Of a DNA stretch of 64,000 nt, positions 8,862-32,705 are shown one piece after another; the stretch's first letter is position 1; every line of letters starts with the position of its first letter. The translations under genes and the position numbers were made by a program. Under the pieces are notes generated by a model. The model worked only from the letters and a program-made list of their open reading frames with translations, did not search any database and was not told the DNA's origin. Source of the stretch: Corynebacterium aurimucosum. Lineage in GTDB: Bacteria; Actinomycetota; Actinomycetes; Mycobacteriales; Mycobacteriaceae. The stretch covers positions 1,178,001 through 1,242,000 of the forward strand of contig NZ_CP047048.1 in the NCBI RefSeq assembly GCF_030408555.1, in the 5' to 3' direction.

Positions 8862-9554
8862 ATGCGTCTTGTCATCGCCCAATGCTCCGTAGACTACGTC
8901 GGCCGCCTCGACGCCCACCTTCCGATGGCGGATCGGCTCATCCTTATCAAGGCCGATGGTTCGGTGTCCATCCATGCGGATGACCGCGCCTACAAGCCTT
9001 TGAACTGGATGACACCACCATGCACCTTTGAAGAGTCGGCGATTGAGGATATCGATGGCGAAGACACAGGAGAAAAGCTGTGGCTGGTGGAGAACCCGAA
9101 GGGTGAGCAGCTACGCATCACCATTGCTGAGATCCACCAGGACATCACTATGGAGCTGGGGGAAGATCCCGGCCTAGTCAAGGATGGCGTGGAAGCGCAC
9201 CTGCAGGAGCTCTTGGCCGAGCATATTGAAACGTTGGGAGAGAAGTACTCGCTAGTGCGTCGCGAGTACCCCACGGCTATCGGGCCGGTGGACATCATGG
9301 CCAAGAATGCCAAGAACGAGTTTGTCGCCGTTGAGGTCAAGCGCCGCGGGGGCATTGATGGAGTCGAGCAGCTTTCGCGCTACCTCGAGTTGCTGAATCG
9401 CGATGACCTGCTAGCACCCGTGCATGGCGTCTTCGCCGCGCAGGAAATCAAGCCCCAAGCACGGACCTTGGCGGAGGACCGCGGCATCCGTTGCGTCGTC
9501 CTGGATTACCAGGAGCTGCGCGGCATCGAATCCAACGAGCTGCGGTTGTTCTAG
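8862..9554 (+). CDS. nucS: Mismatch-specific endonuclease NucS/EndoMS
   Basis: NucS cuts both strands at mismatched bases and provides the non-canonical mismatch repair of actinobacteria, which lack MutS/MutL. The 230-residue protein has the N-terminal DNA-binding/dimerisation domain and a C-terminal RecB-like nuclease with Asp144 (GPVDIMAK) and Glu158-Val-Lys160 (AVEVKRR) as the metal site. It ends in LRLF, the expected sliding-clamp-binding tail. ATG 8862 follows GGGTAGAGGA. Its stop overlaps the GTG of the next small gene (TAGTG). Confidence 0.95.
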
Positions 9555-10157: not shown

Positions 10158-11077
10158 CTGGACCGTACGTAGGAGGAGCCCTCGACCTGGGCGCCATCAA
10201 GCAGCAGGCGGAGGCCAAGGCGAAAGCACAGGAACAGGGCACTACTGGTGCCTCGGCAGGTGTGCAGCCCTTCTTCGAGGTCACCGAGCAGAACTTTGAG
10301 AATGACCTGGTGCGCCGCTCTGCCGAGGTACCTGTTATCGCCTTGATCGGCTCGCCGCGCTCGCCTGCCTCCGAGCAGCTCAAGAAGGACTTCGAGGAGA
10401 TGGCGGCCGCCGGTGGCCTGAAGTTCATCGTGGGCTACATCAATGCCGATGTCGTTCCCCAGGTGGCGCAGGTCTTCGGCGTGCAGAATCTGCCGACCAC
10501 TGTCGCCATCGCTGCAGGCCAGCCGGTCACCAATTTCGAGGGCGGGCAGCCACGTGAGAACTTGGAGCAGTGGGTTGCGGCGATCGTCGACAAGCTCGGC
10601 CCCCAGCTCAAGGGCTTGCCTGACCAAGATGTGGCGGGGGAGACCCCCGAGGAAGAAGCAGCGGATCCGCGCCTGAGCCTGGCTGAGGACGCACTCAACC
10701 GCGGCGATTTCGATTCCGCTATTGCTACCTACGAGGAGATCCTGGCTGCCGAGCCAGACAACGTGGAGATTAAGCAGGCCCGCGACACCACGCTATTACT
10801 CAAGCGCCTGGACCCGGCTAACCGCAGCGAGGATCCTATCGCTGCGGCGGATGCTGCCCCGGAGGACGTGTCCAAGCAGCTCGATGCCGCCGACGCGGAG
10901 GTGGTTGCCGGTGCTCCCGACCGCGCCTTCGAGCGCCTCATCGAGGCCATGAAGCGTACCGCCGGGGATGAGAAAGAACAGCTTAAGACCCGACTCTTGG
11001 AGCTTTTTGGGCTCTTTGATTCCGGTGATTCGCGCGTGCTCGCCGCACGCACGAAGCTGGCCAGCGCGTTGTACTAA
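10154..11077 (+). CDS. CnoX/YbbN-like thioredoxin-fold protein with TPR domain
   Basis: A 307-residue cytoplasmic protein. After a variable N-terminus, residues about 40-155 form a thioredoxin fold (PVIALIGSPRSPASEQLKKDFEE ... FGVQNLPTTVAIAAGQPV). The usual CXXC is replaced by SPRS, so it cannot act as a disulfide reductase. Residues from about 175 form TPR-like helices (AEDALNRGDFDSAIATYEEILAAEPDN). This matches the CnoX/YbbN co-chaperone family and Rv1324 of mycobacteria. GTG 10154 overlaps the upstream stop and has GGAGGA 6 bases before it. Confidence 0.85.
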   Translation: MTGPYVGGALDLGAIKQQAEAKAKAQEQGTTGASAGVQPFFEVTEQNFENDLVRRSAEVPVIALIGSPRSPASEQLKKDFEEMAAAGGLKFIVGYINADVVPQVAQVFGVQNLPTTVAIAAGQPVTNFEGGQPRENLEQWVAAIVDKLGPQLKGLPDQDVAGETPEEEAADPRLSLAEDALNRGDFDSAIATYEEILAAEPDNVEIKQARDTTLLLKRLDPANRSEDPIAAADAAPEDVSKQLDAADAEVVAGAPDRAFERLIEAMKRTAGDEKEQLKTRLLELFGLFDSGDSRVLAARTKLASALY

Positions 11078-21560: not shown

Positions 21561-22520
21561 ATGTCTCACGTTTATGTCCTAGTTGAGCACGAAGCAGACC
21601 AGCTCAGCCCCGTTACCGGCGAGCTCATCACCGCCGCCCGCGCGCTCGGCACCGTCTCCGCCGTCGTCGTGGCCAAGGATGCCGCCACCGCCGCCTCTTT
21701 CGATGCCGAGCTGGGCAACTTCGGTGCCGCCCAGGTGGTCCAGGCCACCGCCGCGGACTATGAGCAGCGCATCGTCACCCCGGAGGTCGACGCCCTCCAC
21801 GCCTTGGCCGCCAATAACCCGGCGCCCATCGTGCTGGCCTCCACCCCGACCAACAATGAGATCGCCGGTCGCCTCGCCGCCCGCCTGGGCTCGGGTGCCT
21901 TGGTCAACGTCGACGGCATTAATGCCGACGGTACCGCCCACCACACCATCTTCGGTGGTTCCTACGAGACTTCCTCCACAGCCACCGGTTCTGTGGTCTA
22001 TACCCTGCGCCCAGGCTCCGTGGTTGCCGAGCCGCAGCCGGTCACCGCAGCACCCGCGCCCTTCGAGCTGCCTGCCGCTACAGCGAAGGACGTCACCGTC
22101 ACCTCCTTCACCCCGGCTGAGAAGACCGCCCGTCCGGAGCTGACCTCCGCCAAGGTCGTCGTGGCCGGTGGCCGCGGCGTGGGCGATAAGTTCGCCGACG
22201 TGGTGGAGCCGCTTGCCGATTCCCTCGGGGCCGCCGTCGGCGCTACCCGCGACGCCGTAGATGAGGGCTTCTACGACCCGGCCCACCAGATCGGTCAGAC
22301 CGGTGCGACCGTGTCCCCGAAGCTCTACATCGGCCTGGGTATTTCCGGTGCTATTCAGCACACCTCCGGCATGCAGACCTCGGAGACCATCGTCGTGGTC
22401 AATCAAGACCAGGACGAGCCCTTCTTCCAGATCGCCGATCTCGGCGTGGTGGGTGACCTCCATGAGATCGCCCCGGCACTTGCCGCGGAGCTGACCAAGC
22501 GCAAGGAGGCTGGCAACTAA
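21561..22520 (+). CDS. etfA: Electron transfer flavoprotein alpha subunit
   Basis: A 319-residue FAD-binding partner of EtfB. The C-terminal FAD domain is clear: VVAGGRGVGDKF, GATRDAVDEG, QIGQTG and GISGAIQHTSGMQTSETIVVVN. AAGGAGAAA precedes ATG 21561. The stop TAA overlaps the ATG of the cysteine desulfurase gene (TAATG), tying the three genes into one operon. Confidence 0.95.
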   Translation: MSHVYVLVEHEADQLSPVTGELITAARALGTVSAVVVAKDAATAASFDAELGNFGAAQVVQATAADYEQRIVTPEVDALHALAANNPAPIVLASTPTNNEIAGRLAARLGSGALVNVDGINADGTAHHTIFGGSYETSSTATGSVVYTLRPGSVVAEPQPVTAAPAPFELPAATAKDVTVTSFTPAEKTARPELTSAKVVVAGGRGVGDKFADVVEPLADSLGAAVGATRDAVDEGFYDPAHQIGQTGATVSPKLYIGLGISGAIQHTSGMQTSETIVVVNQDQDEPFFQIADLGVVGDLHEIAPALAAELTKRKEAGN

Positions 22521-23656
22521 TGCCGCTCTACCTCGATTACGCAGCCACCCAGCCCATGCGCCAGTGCGCTATCGACGCATGGACACAGGCAGCCAGTTCC
22601 CTCAACCCGGGCGCGTCCTATGCCTCCGGGCGCAAGGCACGCTCCGTGCTGGATGACGCCCGCGAGACCGTTGCCGAGCTGCTCGGCTGCGAACCTATCG
22701 AGGTCATCTTCACCTCCTCCGGCACGGAGGCGGACAACATCGCCATTCAAGGCCTGTTCCGCGCTGCGCAGTCTGCTTCCCCCGAAGCCGCGCAGCGCAT
22801 CGTTTCGACCCCCATCGAGCACCCTGCCGTGCTCGAAACCGTGGAGAAGCTCCAGACTGAGCACGGCGCGACCGTTGAGCTTCTCCCGGTTGATTCCACC
22901 GGCCACGTCAGCGATTTAAGCGCCCTGGATACCCCGGCCGCGGTGGCCACCTGCATGTGGGCCAACAACGAGACCGGCGCCATTCAGCCGGTCGCGGACA
23001 TTACCCAGCGCGCCGCCGCGCAGAACACCCCGGTGCACATCGATGCAGTGCAGGTTGCCGGCAAGCTGCCCATCAACTTCCACGAGCTGGGTGCCACCAC
23101 ATTGGCGGCCAGCGCCCACAAGTTCGGCGGCCCGCGCGGCATCGGCCTGCTGCTTGCACGCCGTACCCCCGCCCCTCAACCCATCGCCTTCGGCGGCGGT
23201 CAAGAGCGCGGCATCCGCCCCGGCACCGTCGACGTGGCTAGTGCGAGCGCGCTTGCCGCAGCTCTGCGTGAGTCTGTCGCGGAAATGGAGCAGGAGGAAA
23301 TCCGCCTGACTGCACTTCGCGACAAGCTCAAGGCCGGCATCGAATCCAGCATCGACAACGTCATCATCAACTCGGCCGAGCCCACCTTGGCTTCTCATCT
23401 GCACGTGTCCTTCCCTGGTACGGACGGCGACAGCCTCATCATGCTTCTTGACGCCGCCGGCATCGAAGCCTCCGCCGGCTCCGCCTGCCACGCGGGAGTT
23501 AACCGCATGTCCCACGTGCTCGAAGCGATGGGCATTGACGAAGAACACGGCCGCGGCAGCCTGCGCTTCAGCCTGGGACGAATGACCACTGAAGAAGACA
23601 TCGACGTGGTCCTGGCAGAACTTCCGGAGATTATCCGCCGCGCCCGGTCGGTGTAG
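22520..23656 (+). CDS. Cysteine desulfurase (IscS/NifS-like)
   Basis: A 378-residue class V PLP enzyme that releases sulfur from cysteine as enzyme-bound persulfide. The PLP lysine is in ASAHKFGGPRGIG and the active-site cysteine in GSACHAGVNRMSH. The N-terminal LDYAATQPM is typical. It overlaps etfA by one base. In related corynebacteria the 2-thiouridylase gene mnmA follows directly, which suggests this enzyme supplies sulfur for tRNA thiolation. Here about 8 kb of accessory DNA separates the two. Confidence 0.92.
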   Translation: MPLYLDYAATQPMRQCAIDAWTQAASSLNPGASYASGRKARSVLDDARETVAELLGCEPIEVIFTSSGTEADNIAIQGLFRAAQSASPEAAQRIVSTPIEHPAVLETVEKLQTEHGATVELLPVDSTGHVSDLSALDTPAAVATCMWANNETGAIQPVADITQRAAAQNTPVHIDAVQVAGKLPINFHELGATTLAASAHKFGGPRGIGLLLARRTPAPQPIAFGGGQERGIRPGTVDVASASALAAALRESVAEMEQEEIRLTALRDKLKAGIESSIDNVIINSAEPTLASHLHVSFPGTDGDSLIMLLDAAGIEASAGSACHAGVNRMSHVLEAMGIDEEHGRGSLRFSLGRMTTEEDIDVVLAELPEIIRRARSV

Positions 23657-23768: not shown

Positions 23769-25484
23769 ATGTCGAAGTTCTCTGAGGTCCTAGAACAGCT
23801 GCGTGAAAACCAACCAAAGGCTAAATATGGCATTGCCTTTGAGAAGCTGATGGTCAACTATTTCAAGACCGACCCGACCTTGAAGAACCAATTCGATGAG
23901 GTCTGCCGCTGGACGGATTGGCGCTACAACGGTGGTAAGGCGGATACCGGCATTGACCTGGTAGCTCGCCGCGTGGATGACGGCACGTGGACCGCCATCC
24001 AGTGCAAGTTCTATGACTCCAAGGCGCGCATCCAGAAGTCGCATCTGGATTCCTTCTTCGAGGCTTCCGGGCATTCCTTTGACACCGAAGAAGGCCGCCA
24101 GCACTTCGGGAGCCGCCTCATCATTTCGACGACGGATCACTGGTCCTCCCATGCGGAGGATGCCCTAGCCAATCAGATTATTCCGACCAGCCGCATTGGC
24201 ATCTCCGCGATTGCGGAGTCACCCATCAACTGGGATGTGGCCTTCCCTGGGTCGGAGGTACGCGATAAGACCATCCAGATCAATCTCTCCCAACGTGAAA
24301 CTTTTGAGCCCCGCCCGCACCAGCAGGCGGCGATCGACAAAGCCATTGAAGGGTTTAAGACCCATGACCGCGGCAAGCTCATCATGGCGTGTGGTACCGG
24401 CAAAACCTTTACCGCCCTGCGCCTTGCGGAACGCGTCGCTGAGGACAACGGCGGCAAGGCTCGCATTCTCTTCCTCGTGCCGTCTATTTCCTTGCTCTCC
24501 CAAACCCTCAAGGAGTGGACCGCTCAGGGCCGCCTCGACATGCGCGCCTTCGCGGTGTGCTCCGATAGCAAGGTCTCCAAGAAGGCCGAGGACATCGCTG
24601 TCTATGACCTTGAGGTTCCCGTTTCTACCGAGGGTAAGGACATCACTACACGCTTTGAATCCGGCAAGCGTGCCAAGGGCCTCAACATCGTCTTCTCCAC
24701 CTACCAGTCCATCCAGGCGGTGCATGAGGCCCAGCAGGTAGGCCTCGATGATTTCGATCTCGTCATTTGCGATGAGGCCCACCGCACCACCGGCATCACC
24801 TTGGCCGGTGAGGACGCCAGCAACTTCGTCCGCGTCCACGATGCCGACTACATCAAGGCTTCCAAGCGCCTTTACATGACGGCAACCCCGCGCCTCTACG
24901 ACGAAGCCGTCAAAGGGAAAGCCGAAGAACACTCTGCGGAGCTGGCCTCCATGGATGATGAAGCCATCTACGGCCCGGAGTTCTACCGACTTGGCTTCGG
25001 TGAGGCCGTGGACAAGGGTCTGCTCACGGACTACAAGGTGCTTGTCATGACCGTGGATGAATCCGTGGCTGCCCAAGCTATGGCTCACAGTGAGAACAAC
25101 CAGGTCAACCTTTCTCTGGCGTCTGCCATGATTGGCGCCTGGAACGGCCTGGCCAAGCGCTCCGGCGAATTGCAGGGCAAGAAGGGCGGTTTCGACGAGG
25201 ACGCCCAGCCCATGCAGCGCGCGGTGGCCTTTGCCAAGGACATCAAGACTTCCCAACTTATTGCGGAGACTTACCCCTCGCTCATCGGCACCCACCAAGA
25301 ACTGCTCAAGGAAAAGGCAGTGCTTAACGACGTCTCCCTGACCAACGTCGACCTTAACGTCGCTGCCCAGCACGTCGACGGCGGCATGAACGCCATGGAG
25401 CGTGGCACGAGGCTGTCCTGGCTCGAAGCTCCTTCAGGGGGGGCAGCAGTCGCGCATGCTCACCAACGCGCGCTGCCTTTCTGA
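23769..25484 (+). CDS. Type ISP restriction-modification enzyme, 5' part (nuclease and helicase); frameshifted
   Basis: The first 571 codons of a split gene. Residues 1-150 form an Mrr-like PD-(D/E)XK nuclease with Asp63 (TGIDLVAR) and Gln78-Cys-Lys80 (AIQCKFYD). An SF2 translocase follows, with Q-motif FEPRPHQQAAID, Walker A ACGTGKTFTA near residue 210, DEAH (CDEAHRTTG) near 336 and TATPRLY near 372. The reading frame is lost in a run of seven Gs at 25437-25443 and stops at 25484, before helicase motifs V and VI. This product cannot translocate or methylate on its own. Deleting one G joins it exactly to the next frame, giving one protein of 1662 residues, the size of known Type ISP enzymes such as LlaGI. 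Confidence 0.85.
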   Translation: MSKFSEVLEQLRENQPKAKYGIAFEKLMVNYFKTDPTLKNQFDEVCRWTDWRYNGGKADTGIDLVARRVDDGTWTAIQCKFYDSKARIQKSHLDSFFEASGHSFDTEEGRQHFGSRLIISTTDHWSSHAEDALANQIIPTSRIGISAIAESPINWDVAFPGSEVRDKTIQINLSQRETFEPRPHQQAAIDKAIEGFKTHDRGKLIMACGTGKTFTALRLAERVAEDNGGKARILFLVPSISLLSQTLKEWTAQGRLDMRAFAVCSDSKVSKKAEDIAVYDLEVPVSTEGKDITTRFESGKRAKGLNIVFSTYQSIQAVHEAQQVGLDDFDLVICDEAHRTTGITLAGEDASNFVRVHDADYIKASKRLYMTATPRLYDEAVKGKAEEHSAELASMDDEAIYGPEFYRLGFGEAVDKGLLTDYKVLVMTVDESVAAQAMAHSENNQVNLSLASAMIGAWNGLAKRSGELQGKKGGFDEDAQPMQRAVAFAKDIKTSQLIAETYPSLIGTHQELLKEKAVLNDVSLTNVDLNVAAQHVDGGMNAMERGTRLSWLEAPSGGAAVAHAHQRALPF

Positions 25485-28400
25485 GGGCGTTGACGTCCCA
25501 GCGCTGGATGCCGTCATCTTCTTCAACCCCCGCAACTCCATGGTGGACGTGGTCCAGTCCGTTGGACGCGTCATGCGCAAGTCTGAGGGCAAGGACTACG
25601 GCTACATCATCCTGCCCGTCGCCGTAGCCAGCAACGTCTCCCCAGCAGAAGCTCTCAATGACAACCAGCGCTTCAAGGTGGTCTGGCAGATCCTCAACGC
25701 GCTGCGTGCCCACGATGATCGCTTCAACGCGAAGATTAATTCCATCGCCCTTAACGGCACGGCTGGACAGGAAGACCTGCCCATCGACGTTGTTCATGTC
25801 CCAGGGGACGACGAGAAAAGCGACGCTGAGAAGCTTAGGGAAGCGGATGAAACTAAATCCCCAGAACCGCTGGCTGATAACTCAACCGTGACCCAGCAGA
25901 TTGCCTTGTTCTCTCTGGAGCAGTGGCAAGAAGCCATCTACACCAAGCTGGTGGACAAAGTCGGTACCCGAACCTACTGGGAAGACTGGGCCGACGATGT
26001 CGCCACCATTGCGGAGAATCAAATCACCCGCATCAAAGCTCTTCTCGACGGCGCCGATGGAACCCTGCGCACCGAATTCGACAGCTTCGTCGAAGGCCTG
26101 CGCAATAACCTCAACGATGGCATCAGTGAAGAAGACGCCATCTCGATGCTCTCGCAGCACCTCATTACTGCGCCGGTCTTCAACGCGCTCTTTGAGAACC
26201 ATGACTTCATCACCCACAACCCCGTGGCGCAGGTCATGGAGAAGATGGTCCAGGCGTTGTCTAAAGCAAACCTCGATACCGAAACCGAGTCCCTGGAGAA
26301 GTTCTACGAGTCCGTCCGCGTCCGCGCCTCTGAGGTGAACTCTGCTTCCGGCAAGCAGCAGGTCATCAAGGAACTGTACGAGCGCTTCTTCCGCAAGGCC
26401 TTCAAGAAGCAATCAGAAGCCCTCGGCATCGTCTACACCCCGGTCGAAATCGTCGACTTCATCCTGCGCGCCGCCGATGAAGTATCCAAGAAGCACTTCG
26501 GTAAGGGGCTTACCGACGAGGGCGTGTGCATCCTTGACCCGTTTGCTGGCACCTCCACTTTCACGGTTCGCCTCCTGCAGTCCGGCCTTATCAAGCCGGA
26601 GGATCTCGCTCGCAAATACGCCAACGAACTCTTTGCCACCGAGATCATGCTGCTTGCGTACTACGTCTCCGCGGTAAACATTGAGACCACCTACAACGCC
26701 CTACGCGAGGAAGCGGCGCTGCGCAACGGCGAACCCGAACCCGAGTACGTCCCATTCACCAACATCGCTCTGGCCGATACCTTCCAAATCCACGAGGAAG
26801 GCGACATCCCAGACCTCAACATCTTCCGCGAGAACAACGAGACCATCGAGCGCCAAAAGAAGGCGCCCATCAACGTGGTGATTGGTAACCCGCCGTACTC
26901 AGCAGGGCAGAAGTCCGCCAATGACCTCAATGCGAATCAAAAGTATCCAAGTCTAGATGCGCGAATCTCGGAGACTTATGCTGCTAGGTCCACCGCAACG
27001 AATAAGAACTCACTTTATGATTCGTACCTTCGTGCCTTCCGTTGGGCAACTGACAGGATTGGAGATCAAGGTGTAGTTGTCTTTGTCACGAATAATGGTT
27101 GGATTGATGGAAACACCGGTGACGGTATTCGTTTGTCCATGGCAGAGGATTTCACTGACCTCTACATATTCAATCTCAGGGGTAATTCTCGCACTGCCGG
27201 CGATCTTGCAAAACGGGAAGGCGGGAATGTTTTCGATATTCGAGTAGGAATTTCTATCGCTATCGGTGTCAAGGACGCAAACGAGAAGTCTTTTGAATTG
27301 CATTATGTAGCTTCACCTGATTATGCGTCTAAGGCGGAGAAGATTGAAGAAGTAGTTAATGCAACCATCAGTAATTTGAATTGGCAGTCAGTTGTTCCTA
27401 ACAAGGAGGGCGACTGGCTGAATCAGCGTTCGGAAGACTTCGTTACCTGGCCGGTCATCGGTGAGAAAAAGGGTGGGTCGACTAAGTTTTTCGACCTGCA
27501 TTCTCGAGGTCTCTCCACTGCAAGAGACACGTGGGCTTACGCGCAGACAGAAGACAGGTTGCTATCGAAACTCGGAGTTCTTGCCGGTACTTATACTGAA
27601 GCAACTGCAGCGCTACAAAATTGGCTCACTGAACAAGGAATCTCAAAGCCTCGGGAAAGGGACGTGACTGCATTCCTACAGGCCCATCCTCATTTCGCAG
27701 ACACTACTAAAGTTTCCTGGAATAGGACGCTGAAGAACCTTGCAGCTAAGGACACGGAGATTCCGGTACGCCGTAATCGGGTATATCGTTCGCTCTATCG
27801 CCCATTTTTGAAGCAGCGGGTCTACTTCGAACAGTCACTTAACGATATGACCTATCAACTCCCATCAATGTTCCCAACCCCGGAACACCGGAACATTGGC
27901 TTCGTTGTTATGGCTCCGCGTGATGCAGCGAATTTCGCAGTACTTGCGACGGACCTTATGCCGGATTTGTCTTTCTTTACCTACACTGGCCAATTCTTCC
28001 CTCGCTTCACCTGGGCCGCCGTTTCGGCGGACGATGGTGGGCTGTTTGGTGAGGGGAGCGTCGCTAAGCAGGGCGAAGCCAGCATCTATGGTTCGATTGG
28101 TGAGGTCGTCGATGGCTACGTGCGCGTGGACAACATCACTGATGAGATTAAGGCTCTCTACCGTGAAGCGCTGGGTTCAGACATCACGGGTGATGACATC
28201 TTCCACTTTGTCTACGGCAAGCTGCATGACCCCGGCTACCGCACGAAGTACGCGGCTGACTTAAAGAAGATGTTGCCGCATATTGAGACGCCGAGCTCGC
28301 GTGCGGAGTTCGACAAGTTTGCTGCTGCGGGCCAGGAGCTGATGGATCTTCACGTTAACTACGAGTCCGTGGAGCCGTGGCCGTTGGACATTCAGGTCAA

Positions 28401-28758
28401 GGGCGATGAGGCCGACCGTGAGACATGGCGCGTGCTCAAGATGAAGTGGGCCAAGCGCAAGGACCCGGAGACGGGCAAGAACGTCAATGACGTGACCAAG
28501 CTGATCTACAACAAGCGCGTGACCATTTCTGACATTCCGGCCGAGGCGGATGAGTACATGCTGGGCTCGCGCTCAGCTGTCGCCTGGCTGATTGACCGCT
28601 ACCAAGTCAAGAAAGATAAGGCCTCCGGCATTGTTAATGACCCGAATGATTGGGCCGACGAGGTGGGCAACCCGCGTTACATCGTGGACCTGATTGGCAA
28701 AGTCGTGCGCGTGGCGATGGAGACTGTACGAATCGTGGATGGGCTGGGTTCTGAATAG
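25402..28758 (+). CDS. Type ISP restriction-modification enzyme, 3' part (helicase end, methyltransferase, target recognition)
   Basis: The continuation in frame +1. It opens with helicase motif V/VI (NARCLSEGVDVPALDAV, QSVGRVMRK), then a helical coupler. An N6-adenine methyltransferase follows with motif I ILDPFAGTSTFTVRLL and motif IV VIGNPPYSAG. A target-recognition region (about 26930-27960) and a conserved C-terminus complete it. The recognition region has visibly lower GC than its flanks. Genuine homology begins at about 25438; an internal ATG at 25456 could start a separate protein. Taken alone this half lacks the nuclease and the Walker A motif but keeps the whole methyltransferase. 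Confidence 0.85.
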   Translation: MARGCPGSKLLQGGQQSRMLTNARCLSEGVDVPALDAVIFFNPRNSMVDVVQSVGRVMRKSEGKDYGYIILPVAVASNVSPAEALNDNQRFKVVWQILNALRAHDDRFNAKINSIALNGTAGQEDLPIDVVHVPGDDEKSDAEKLREADETKSPEPLADNSTVTQQIALFSLEQWQEAIYTKLVDKVGTRTYWEDWADDVATIAENQITRIKALLDGADGTLRTEFDSFVEGLRNNLNDGISEEDAISMLSQHLITAPVFNALFENHDFITHNPVAQVMEKMVQALSKANLDTETESLEKFYESVRVRASEVNSASGKQQVIKELYERFFRKAFKKQSEALGIVYTPVEIVDFILRAADEVSKKHFGKGLTDEGVCILDPFAGTSTFTVRLLQSGLIKPEDLARKYANELFATEIMLLAYYVSAVNIETTYNALREEAALRNGEPEPEYVPFTNIALADTFQIHEEGDIPDLNIFRENNETIERQKKAPINVVIGNPPYSAGQKSANDLNANQKYPSLDARISETYAARSTATNKNSLYDSYLRAFRWATDRIGDQGVVVFVTNNGWIDGNTGDGIRLSMAEDFTDLYIFNLRGNSRTAGDLAKREGGNVFDIRVGISIAIGVKDANEKSFELHYVASPDYASKAEKIEEVVNATISNLNWQSVVPNKEGDWLNQRSEDFVTWPVIGEKKGGSTKFFDLHSRGLSTARDTWAYAQTEDRLLSKLGVLAGTYTEATAALQNWLTEQGISKPRERDVTAFLQAHPHFADTTKVSWNRTLKNLAAKDTEIPVRRNRVYRSLYRPFLKQRVYFEQSLNDMTYQLPSMFPTPEHRNIGFVVMAPRDAANFAVLATDLMPDLSFFTYTGQFFPRFTWAAVSADDGGLFGEGSVAKQGEASIYGSIGEVVDGYVRVDNITDEIKALYREALGSDITGDDIFHFVYGKLHDPGYRTKYAADLKKMLPHIETPSSRAEFDKFAAAGQELMDLHVNYESVEPWPLDIQVKGDEADRETWRVLKMKWAKRKDPETGKNVNDVTKLIYNKRVTISDIPAEADEYMLGSRSAVAWLIDRYQVKKDKASGIVNDPNDWADEVGNPRYIVDLIGKVVRVAMETVRIVDGLGSE
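25437..25443 (+). repeat. G7 homopolymer at the frameshift of the Type ISP gene
   Basis: Seven consecutive Gs lie where the upstream and downstream frames should join. With six (or nine) Gs the frame reads ...PSGGQQSRMLTNARC... and the two halves become one ORF of 4989 bases. The tract may be a slippage-prone on/off switch, a fixed mutation or a sequencing error. Confidence 0.8.
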
Positions 28759-31619: not shown

Positions 31620-32705
31620 ATGCGAGTATTGGTAGCCATGTCCGGCGGCGTCGATTCCTCGGTGGCTGCAGCACGCGCAGTGGAAGCAGGCCATGACGTC
31701 ATTGGCGTGCACTTGGCCCTGCACAAGGATGCACAGCAGACCCGTGAGAAGGCACGCGGATGCTGCTCCCTAGAGGATTCCGCCGACGCCCGCCGTATAT
31801 GCGACAAACTCGGCATTCCCTTCTATGTATGGGACTTCTCCGAGGAGTTCAAGGAAGCCGTCATCGGGGATTTCGTGGACTCCTACGCCCGCGGTGAGAC
31901 CCCGAATCCGTGCCTGCGCTGTAATGAGAAGATCAAGTTCGCAGCCTTGCTGCGCAAAGGCATGGCGCTGGGCTTTGATGCAGTCGCCACGGGTCACTAT
32001 GCCACCATCGACTCTGATGGCTACATGCGCCGCTCCCTGGATGAGAACAAGGACCAGTCCTACGTGCTGGGGGTGATCACCAAGGAAGAGCTGGACCACT
32101 GTTTCTTCCCGATTGGAGATACCCCGAAGCCGCAGATCCGCGAGGAAGCCAAGCGCCACGGATTCTCCACTGCGTCCAAGCCTGATTCTTATGACATCTG
32201 CTTCATCCCGGACGGCAATACCCAGGCCTTCCTGGGCCGTTCCATCGGACTGCGTCCGGGGATGATCGTGGATACCGAGGGCAATGAGCTCAAGGAACAC
32301 GATGGCGCGTGGAACTACACCATCGGCCAGCGCAAGGGCCTAGACATCAAGACACCGACTGCCGACGGCTCCCCACGCTACGTCACCGACATCGACGCGG
32401 CTACCGGCACTGTCACCGTGGGATCGCGCGCCGACTTGGCTGTGACCCACATCGAGGCTGACCGCCTGAAGTACCTGCACCCGGCGATGGAAGGTGACTT
32501 CGACTGCGAGGTGCAAGTTCGCGCCCACGGCTCCGTCGTTCCCTGCCATGCTCACGTGGACCGCGAGGCCGACCGCATGACGCTGGAGCTTAACGAGCCC
32601 CTTTCTGGTGTAGCCCGCGGCCAGGCCGCTGTGCTCTATTTGCCGAGCCCGGATGAGCTGGGAGATATTGTGCTCGGTTCCGGCACCATCTGCGGGACTG
32701 AGTAG
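31620..32705 (+). CDS. mnmA: tRNA-specific 2-thiouridylase
   Basis: A 361-residue PP-loop enzyme that thiolates U34 of tRNAs for Lys, Glu and Gln. [12 protein letters not shown] is the ATP PP-loop. The catalytic cysteines lie in [12 protein letters not shown] and DICFIPDGN. The C-terminal beta-barrel is present. AAGGGGAG before ATG 31620 is the ribosome site. Sulfur would come from the cysteine desulfurase encoded about 8 kb upstream. The next gene begins directly after its stop. Confidence 0.95.

Follow-up and report, generated by a model that had tools for sequence, protein, structure and literature searches.

Tract length, reading frame and possible phase variation of a split Type ISP restriction-modification gene in Corynebacterium

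Is a Type ISP restriction-modification gene that is split within a run of seven guanines switched by slippage of that run, or is it simply decaying? The question is raised by a gene in a 64,000-bp stretch of DNA (hereafter, the window), which corresponds to C1:1178001-1242000 in a 2.74-Mb genome of two contigs and whose nearest named relatives are Corynebacterium, including C. minutissimum. Judged from sequence comparisons, slippage-driven phase variation is likely to explain this gene better than plain decay. The original prediction for this locus, a phase-variable defence gene, is favoured by the comparison of relatives, and switching within a clone is something that we infer.

The split gene and its tract in close relatives

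As had been predicted, the gene is split by one base at a G7 tract (25437-25443, hereafter site A), and the sequence, the open reading frames (ORFs) and the Pfam domains all agree on this. The first frame (ORF1) contains the motif patterns GTGKT, DEAH and TATPR and, from residue 63, the nuclease pattern D...QxK. The second frame contains QSVGRVMR, DPFAGT and NPPY, the latter two of which we take to be methyltransferase motifs I and IV, and in Pfam it matches Eco57I/N6_Mtase (Eco57I E 4.9e-08) and the end of Helicase_C (PF00271). The Helicase_C profile is matched only from its position 65 onward, 3' of the tract, and thus the domain is cut by the tract. The first product, which stops 15 codons from the start of the tract, indeed ends before helicase motif VI, as QSVGRVMR is found only in the second frame.

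An N-terminal Mrr-like nuclease (PF13156, D...QxK), an SF2 motor (Walker A, DEAH, motifs III and VI) and a coupler, adenine methyltransferase and C-terminal specificity domain (Pfam, motifs), as expected of a Type ISP enzyme, are all present, but the motor is spread over both frames. A single polypeptide is not encoded in the window as read, although it is in the near-identical natural protein P0001. Since the gene is split into two frames, the window is best described as carrying a Type ISP allele that is out of frame, and not a complete enzyme. P0001 is identical to the window frames before the tract (0/555 residues differ), differs at 3/1104 residues after it, and has three glycines at the tract. 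P0001 is 1663 aa long, one residue more than the 1662 predicted for the joined product.

Tract length was compared in relatives, as had been proposed, and is not uniform: both in-frame forms (two or three glycines) and out-of-frame forms (G7, G8) occur. Site A thus resembles a contingency locus in that the repeat tract lies within the reading frame and is polymorphic in and out of frame among relatives, the in-frame forms being known from proteins only. Among the 120 clusters listed (7997 passed), four have APSGGQQSR (two glycines), six have APSGGGQQSR (three glycines), one has APSGVQQSR, and nine start at MLTNARCLSEGVDV, directly 3' of the tract. The MLTNARC start of these nine coincides with the start of the product that would begin at an internal ATG (25456), and a start directly after the tract is what a gene finder would call for an out-of-frame copy. 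In another search, two 574-aa clusters among the 120 listed stop just after the tract; these have 4 and 79 member sequences, taken at cluster level. Elsewhere in the family the residues at this spot differ (SPAGEHESR, SPADENESR, EADIAPTESR and others).

The pattern of the site A tract and its right flank was found in 3 of 242 genomes of the genus. In HMSC078H07 (L066), a G8 is present at site A and the reading frames before and after it differ. In C. minutissimum 1941, the gene is on two contigs that leave into other DNA at the run, with G8 at one end and G10 at the other. The start of the DNA bordering this tract (209-218 bases) is present at four places in that genome with 100% identity, and the DNA inside the tract is therefore a repeated element. 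A tract unique to the window genome was rejected, since other relatives carry site A.

Long runs across the Type ISP family

Among the fetched loci that were scanned, G/C runs of 8-14 were found inside Type ISP genes at six or seven further positions in Corynebacterium and Actinotignum (Table 1, sites B to H). Including site A, there are 18 tract genes, five of which are in one frame and 11 frame-shifted (two were not scorable). Additionally, 15 of 240 proteins start soon after the 224-229 site in a pattern search of the listed clusters. In a gene tree (87 genes, residues 310-549), several deep forks of which are unresolved, the tract genes are spread, by our reading, over eleven separate clusters; tracts may nevertheless have passed from one lineage to another. 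A single ancestral run behind all tracts was rejected because the positions differ and this tree separates the tract genes.

Runs of at least 8 are also more frequent than expected. In 70 Type ISP genes from 64 genomes, 12 were observed versus 1.48 expected (Poisson P 6e-8, ancestry ignored), the observed runs being tallied, and the tract counts entered, by hand. The expectation was derived from genome-wide counts of runs of at least 8 (median 8 per genome across the 64 genomes, with genome lengths rounded). The gene of G225 was included on account of its tract, and its removal leaves 11 versus 1.47 expected (P 4e-7, ancestry ignored). If just seven of the events are independent, then P is 9e-4 for the 70-gene excess. 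Unfetched genes outside the 70-gene count include those of G193, G032, G195, G130, and G111. A local control took 52 of 57 named loci, the five with fewer than 900 matched residues being left out, and gave 16 tracts in 250 kb of gene, whereas 478 kb of flanking sequence contained 5 (odds ratio 6.1, Fisher P 1.4e-4). Overall, Type ISP genes are approximately 6-8 times richer in long G/C runs than the flanks or the genome background.

The whole window genome has 13 G/C runs of at least 7, and several of the twelve other than the site A tract look intergenic by ORF layout. The two longest, G000:C1:615620 (G10) and G000:C1:1993927 (C13), look intergenic on the same basis and could affect their neighbours. 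Runs are also present shortly 3' of the Type ISP gene in two loci (G9 at L059 9741-9749 and C8 at L055 9534-9541), with a possible effect on the downstream gene. Two Type ISP genes were fetched from each of G019, G053, G056, G141, G178, and G190, and in G053 one of the two has a tract. Approximately 1.3 kb past the intact C. pseudodiphtheriticum gene, L048 has a second copy of enzyme residues 925-965 (10601-10723, 92% identical). Regarding the neighbours of the window gene, the cysteine-desulfurase-like gene is common to L032, L062, L066, L091, and L092, and an mnmA-like gene is also found beyond the Type ISP gene in L032, L033, L066, and L084.

Table 1. Features of the window (nucleotide positions) and run sites of other Type ISP genes (approximate P0001 residues; on, matched segments in one frame; off, frame-shifted)
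Feature	Position	Strand	Basis or detail
nucS, mismatch-repair nuclease gene, relevant to tract instability	8862..9554	+	NucS_C PF01939 at 9189-9551
Upstream neighbour, aminotransferase class V (cysteine desulfurase-like)	22520..23656	+	Pfam
ORF1, N-terminal Type ISP part (nuclease, first motor half), 571 aa	23769..25484	+	ORF list, Pfam
Mrr_cat_2 nuclease domain PF13156, residues 33-163	23865..24257	+	Pfam, E 4e-44
ResIII PF04851 / SF2 first motor half, residues 179-375	24303..24893	+	Pfam
Second open frame, 1118 codons (Helicase_C end, coupler, adenine methyltransferase, specificity domain)	25402..28758	+	ORF list, Pfam
G7 tract (site A), inside second motor half, immediately 5' of conserved NARCLSEGVDVP	25437..25443	+	Sequence
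Possible separate product from internal ATG, 1100 aa	25456..28758	+	Start usage presumed
ISP_coupler PF22240	25975..26349	+	Pfam, E 8.6e-52
DPFAGT (residue 379, second frame) to NPPY (residue 496)	26536..26898	+	Pattern search
Type_ISP_C specificity domain PF18135	27487..28692	+	Pfam, E 1.1e-87
Downstream neighbour, tRNA_Me_trans (mnmA-like)	31620..32705	+	
Site B	residues 224-229		C. propinquum G9 off; C. pseudodiphtheriticum G8 on; C. spheniscorum G10 off
Site C	residue 320		G10 on
Site D	residue 300		Two Actinotignum, G10 off
Site E	residues 982-991		C10 on in C. riegelii and NML140438; off in NML130628 (C9), NML98-0116 (C14) and G053 (C9)
Sites F and G	residues 698 and 687		C11 off; same variable linker, perhaps one site
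Site H	residue 1546		G11 on

Slippage, constraint and decay

If the tract is a switch, then its length would change by slipped-strand mispairing within clones, the changes would be reversible at a useful rate, and the split copy would be without restriction. Selection, by phage attack on the one hand and by DNA uptake or self-damage on the other, would maintain the tract. Mismatch repair bears on the first of these steps. A profile search for MutS_V found no match in the window genome, which has nucS (Table 1). In M. smegmatis, NucS does not repair indels of 1-2 bases, and the authors of that work tie this to mycobacterial phase variation at homopolymer runs (PMC11551767). Because NucS lacks small-indel repair in that species, a MutS match is absent, and the G tract of the Pgl system provides a precedent, slippage in this tract would be expected. 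The rate is probably lower at G7 than in copies with G9-G11, since G7 is short.

The ratio of non-synonymous to synonymous substitution rates (dN/dS) is 0.007-0.037 for codons 1-550 (15 pairs of six sequences) and 0.019-0.120 for 430 codons 3' of the tract (10 pairs of five sequences). As these values are low, also between off-frame copies, most of the divergence of these copies occurred under constraint. The tract as an old pseudogene scar was rejected because dN/dS is low and the frames are open on both sides.

A younger pseudogene requires separate consideration. If the cell can do without the restriction gene, or pays a cost for it, and frameshifts simply tend to fall in homopolymers, then the split would have no useful reversal. 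Unrelated inactivations, which the original prediction had named as the mark of a plain pseudogene, are indeed present in some homologues: G190 and G153 have an in-frame TGA some 100-120 codons short of the end, C. jeikeium has a frameshift that is not associated with a tract, the 1941 tract contains a foreign repeat, and genomes including G007, G062, G111, and G132 give fragmentary matches. Moreover, five independent inactivations of one restriction system are reported in Cutibacterium (Propionibacterium) acnes (PMC4746626), and the ratio of five on to 11 off among the tract genes is close to that expected from free slippage without selection. However, apart from the tract, the copies that carry it and lie close to the window have open frames, dN/dS is low both 5' and 3' of it, and 1100 open codons follow it. 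Plain decay also fails to explain the occurrence of long runs at seven or eight positions with 6-8 times enrichment, given that a run has to arise while the gene is still open, and the two different glycine numbers of intact forms. It is slightly weakened further by two inactivations that were rejected, the 'insertion' in C. striatum being scaffold Ns and the TGA in G021 being outside the matched gene frame. Therefore, decay by itself appears an unlikely account of the tract, while switching and decay probably both act in the family.

Homopolymer miscalls are a known sequencing artefact, and the window G7, seen in one assembly, could be such an error in an intact gene. In contrast, an independent assembly has G8, and two 574-aa clusters stop, and nine clusters start, at the tract. 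An error would account for the window alone and not for the family pattern, and is very unlikely to be the explanation.

Together with the inactivations, the on/off ratio and the potential miscall, several other observations weigh against phase variation. The enrichment ignores shared ancestry, and the 52 loci contain near-duplicates (L080/L081, and L036/L038/L061, which are identical in the tree region), a gene part alone on its contig (L033), and a locus in which two runs around Ns were counted (L070). Tracts at one site in relatives may be one event or may have been moved by recombination, and the C14 copy (NML98-0116) differs beside the run as well. Close relatives of the window are without the tract (SPAGEHESR in L003/L032 and in several clusters), and the clusters starting at MLTNARC could equally stem from contig ends or other breaks.

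Two side observations concern interrupted copies. The tract-free genes of L032 (C. minutissimum ATCC 23348) and L034 have an in-frame TGA at codon 1558/1660 and 1546/1668, respectively, past the recognition domain. Additionally, seven clusters (P0121, P0122, P0131, P0136, P0137, P0141, and P0145) end at methyltransferase motif I in foreign tails that resemble one another (ILETF...IQTRANYDLAA and the like), as though similar elements had entered this conserved codon in several lineages.

The recognition domain, known systems and the C-terminal half

Compared with twelve related clusters, P0001 is 92-100% identical per 100 residues, where covered, over residues 1-600 and 801-1000, and just 39-93% identical over residues 1101-1400. 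Hence it is in the recognition part that alleles with and without a tract diverge most, a pattern also seen in known allele families of switching methyltransferases. The Type ISP enzymes LlaBIII (4xqk) and LlaGI (5ffj) have the same domain order, and LlaBIII matches P0001 end to end (residues 5-1660, E = 0), but at the tract position it reads NPNKPADEAR, without a glycine run. In a tblastn search against plasmids, identity was 53-58% in the 20 matches listed; 4 of 716 records were at 60-80% and the rest below.

Several known systems are similar in part. PglX is one component of a multi-gene system without a Type ISP nuclease-motor chain, and Type IIG enzymes are without an SF2 motor. Nevertheless, pglX of the Streptomyces coelicolor Pgl system is also an actinobacterial phage-defence methyltransferase gene, whose switching, at 10^-2 to 10^-4, is attributed to G-tract length (PMC4365076); switching was measured there. 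Type ISP genes are found in pieces through frameshifts in Helicobacter pylori (HP0667-HP0669 and JHP0612-0613), although, according to the published account, sequence repeats are not the cause of the frameshifts in strain 26695 (PMC3936762). The Type IIG enzymes of Campylobacter jejuni (PMC4889913) and H. pylori (JHP1272/HP1353, JHP1272 being switched by homopolymer runs; PMC3936762) are likewise single-chain restriction-methyltransferases that are switched on and off, but they belong to other phyla. C. acnes, also an actinobacterium, has 54 variable tracts (96% G/C), some of which frameshift genes, but the tract genes named in the section of that report consulted include no Type ISP gene (PMC4746626). 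Thus, phase variation of restriction systems, actinobacterial defence genes with G tracts, and splits in Type ISP genes have each been described before. Repeat-driven switching of a Type ISP gene was not found among the papers listed in searches of an open-access library, as judged from titles, abstract openings and consulted passages, reviews included.

If the second frame is translated from the internal ATG, which lies 28 bases before the end of ORF1 and is followed by 1100 open codons, then the split gene may be a two-part form in which a stand-alone methyltransferase persists while restriction is off. This form would be compatible with tract switching, and the low dN/dS after the tract is consistent with it, but equally with time spent in frame. 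By the usual rule for ribosome-site spacing, the G run is poorly placed, as it ends 12 bases 5' of the ATG, and the fragment would carry a broken motor half too. HP0669, which is the methyltransferase-specificity part of the split Type ISP gene in H. pylori 26695, is sufficient for GGANNAG methylation in E. coli (PMC3936762). On balance, a two-part form in the window is a possibility that we consider rather improbable. Because the separate C-terminal part of the split H. pylori Type ISP gene methylates alone, restriction-off/methylation-on states are a real possibility for tracts located before the methyltransferase, and it is uncertain whether, as the original prediction held, an N6-adenine motif would be absent in G7 isolates. 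Tracts within the methyltransferase (982-991) should remove both activities.

A broader proposal is offered tentatively, as possible but short of probable: the Type ISP genes of Corynebacterium and its relatives may constitute a recurrently phase-variable defence family, in which runs arose independently at seven or eight sites of the gene and the recognition domain differs between strains. At sites A-D, the off state would drop restriction and keep methylation via an internally started C-terminal half, which would let the cell restore restriction without self-cutting. If the tracts are indeed switches, then single-chain restriction motors in many Corynebacterium species would be under slippage control, which would account in part for the differences between strains in phage resistance and transformability. 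The differing tract positions would then provide a natural test of restriction switching without loss of self-protection.

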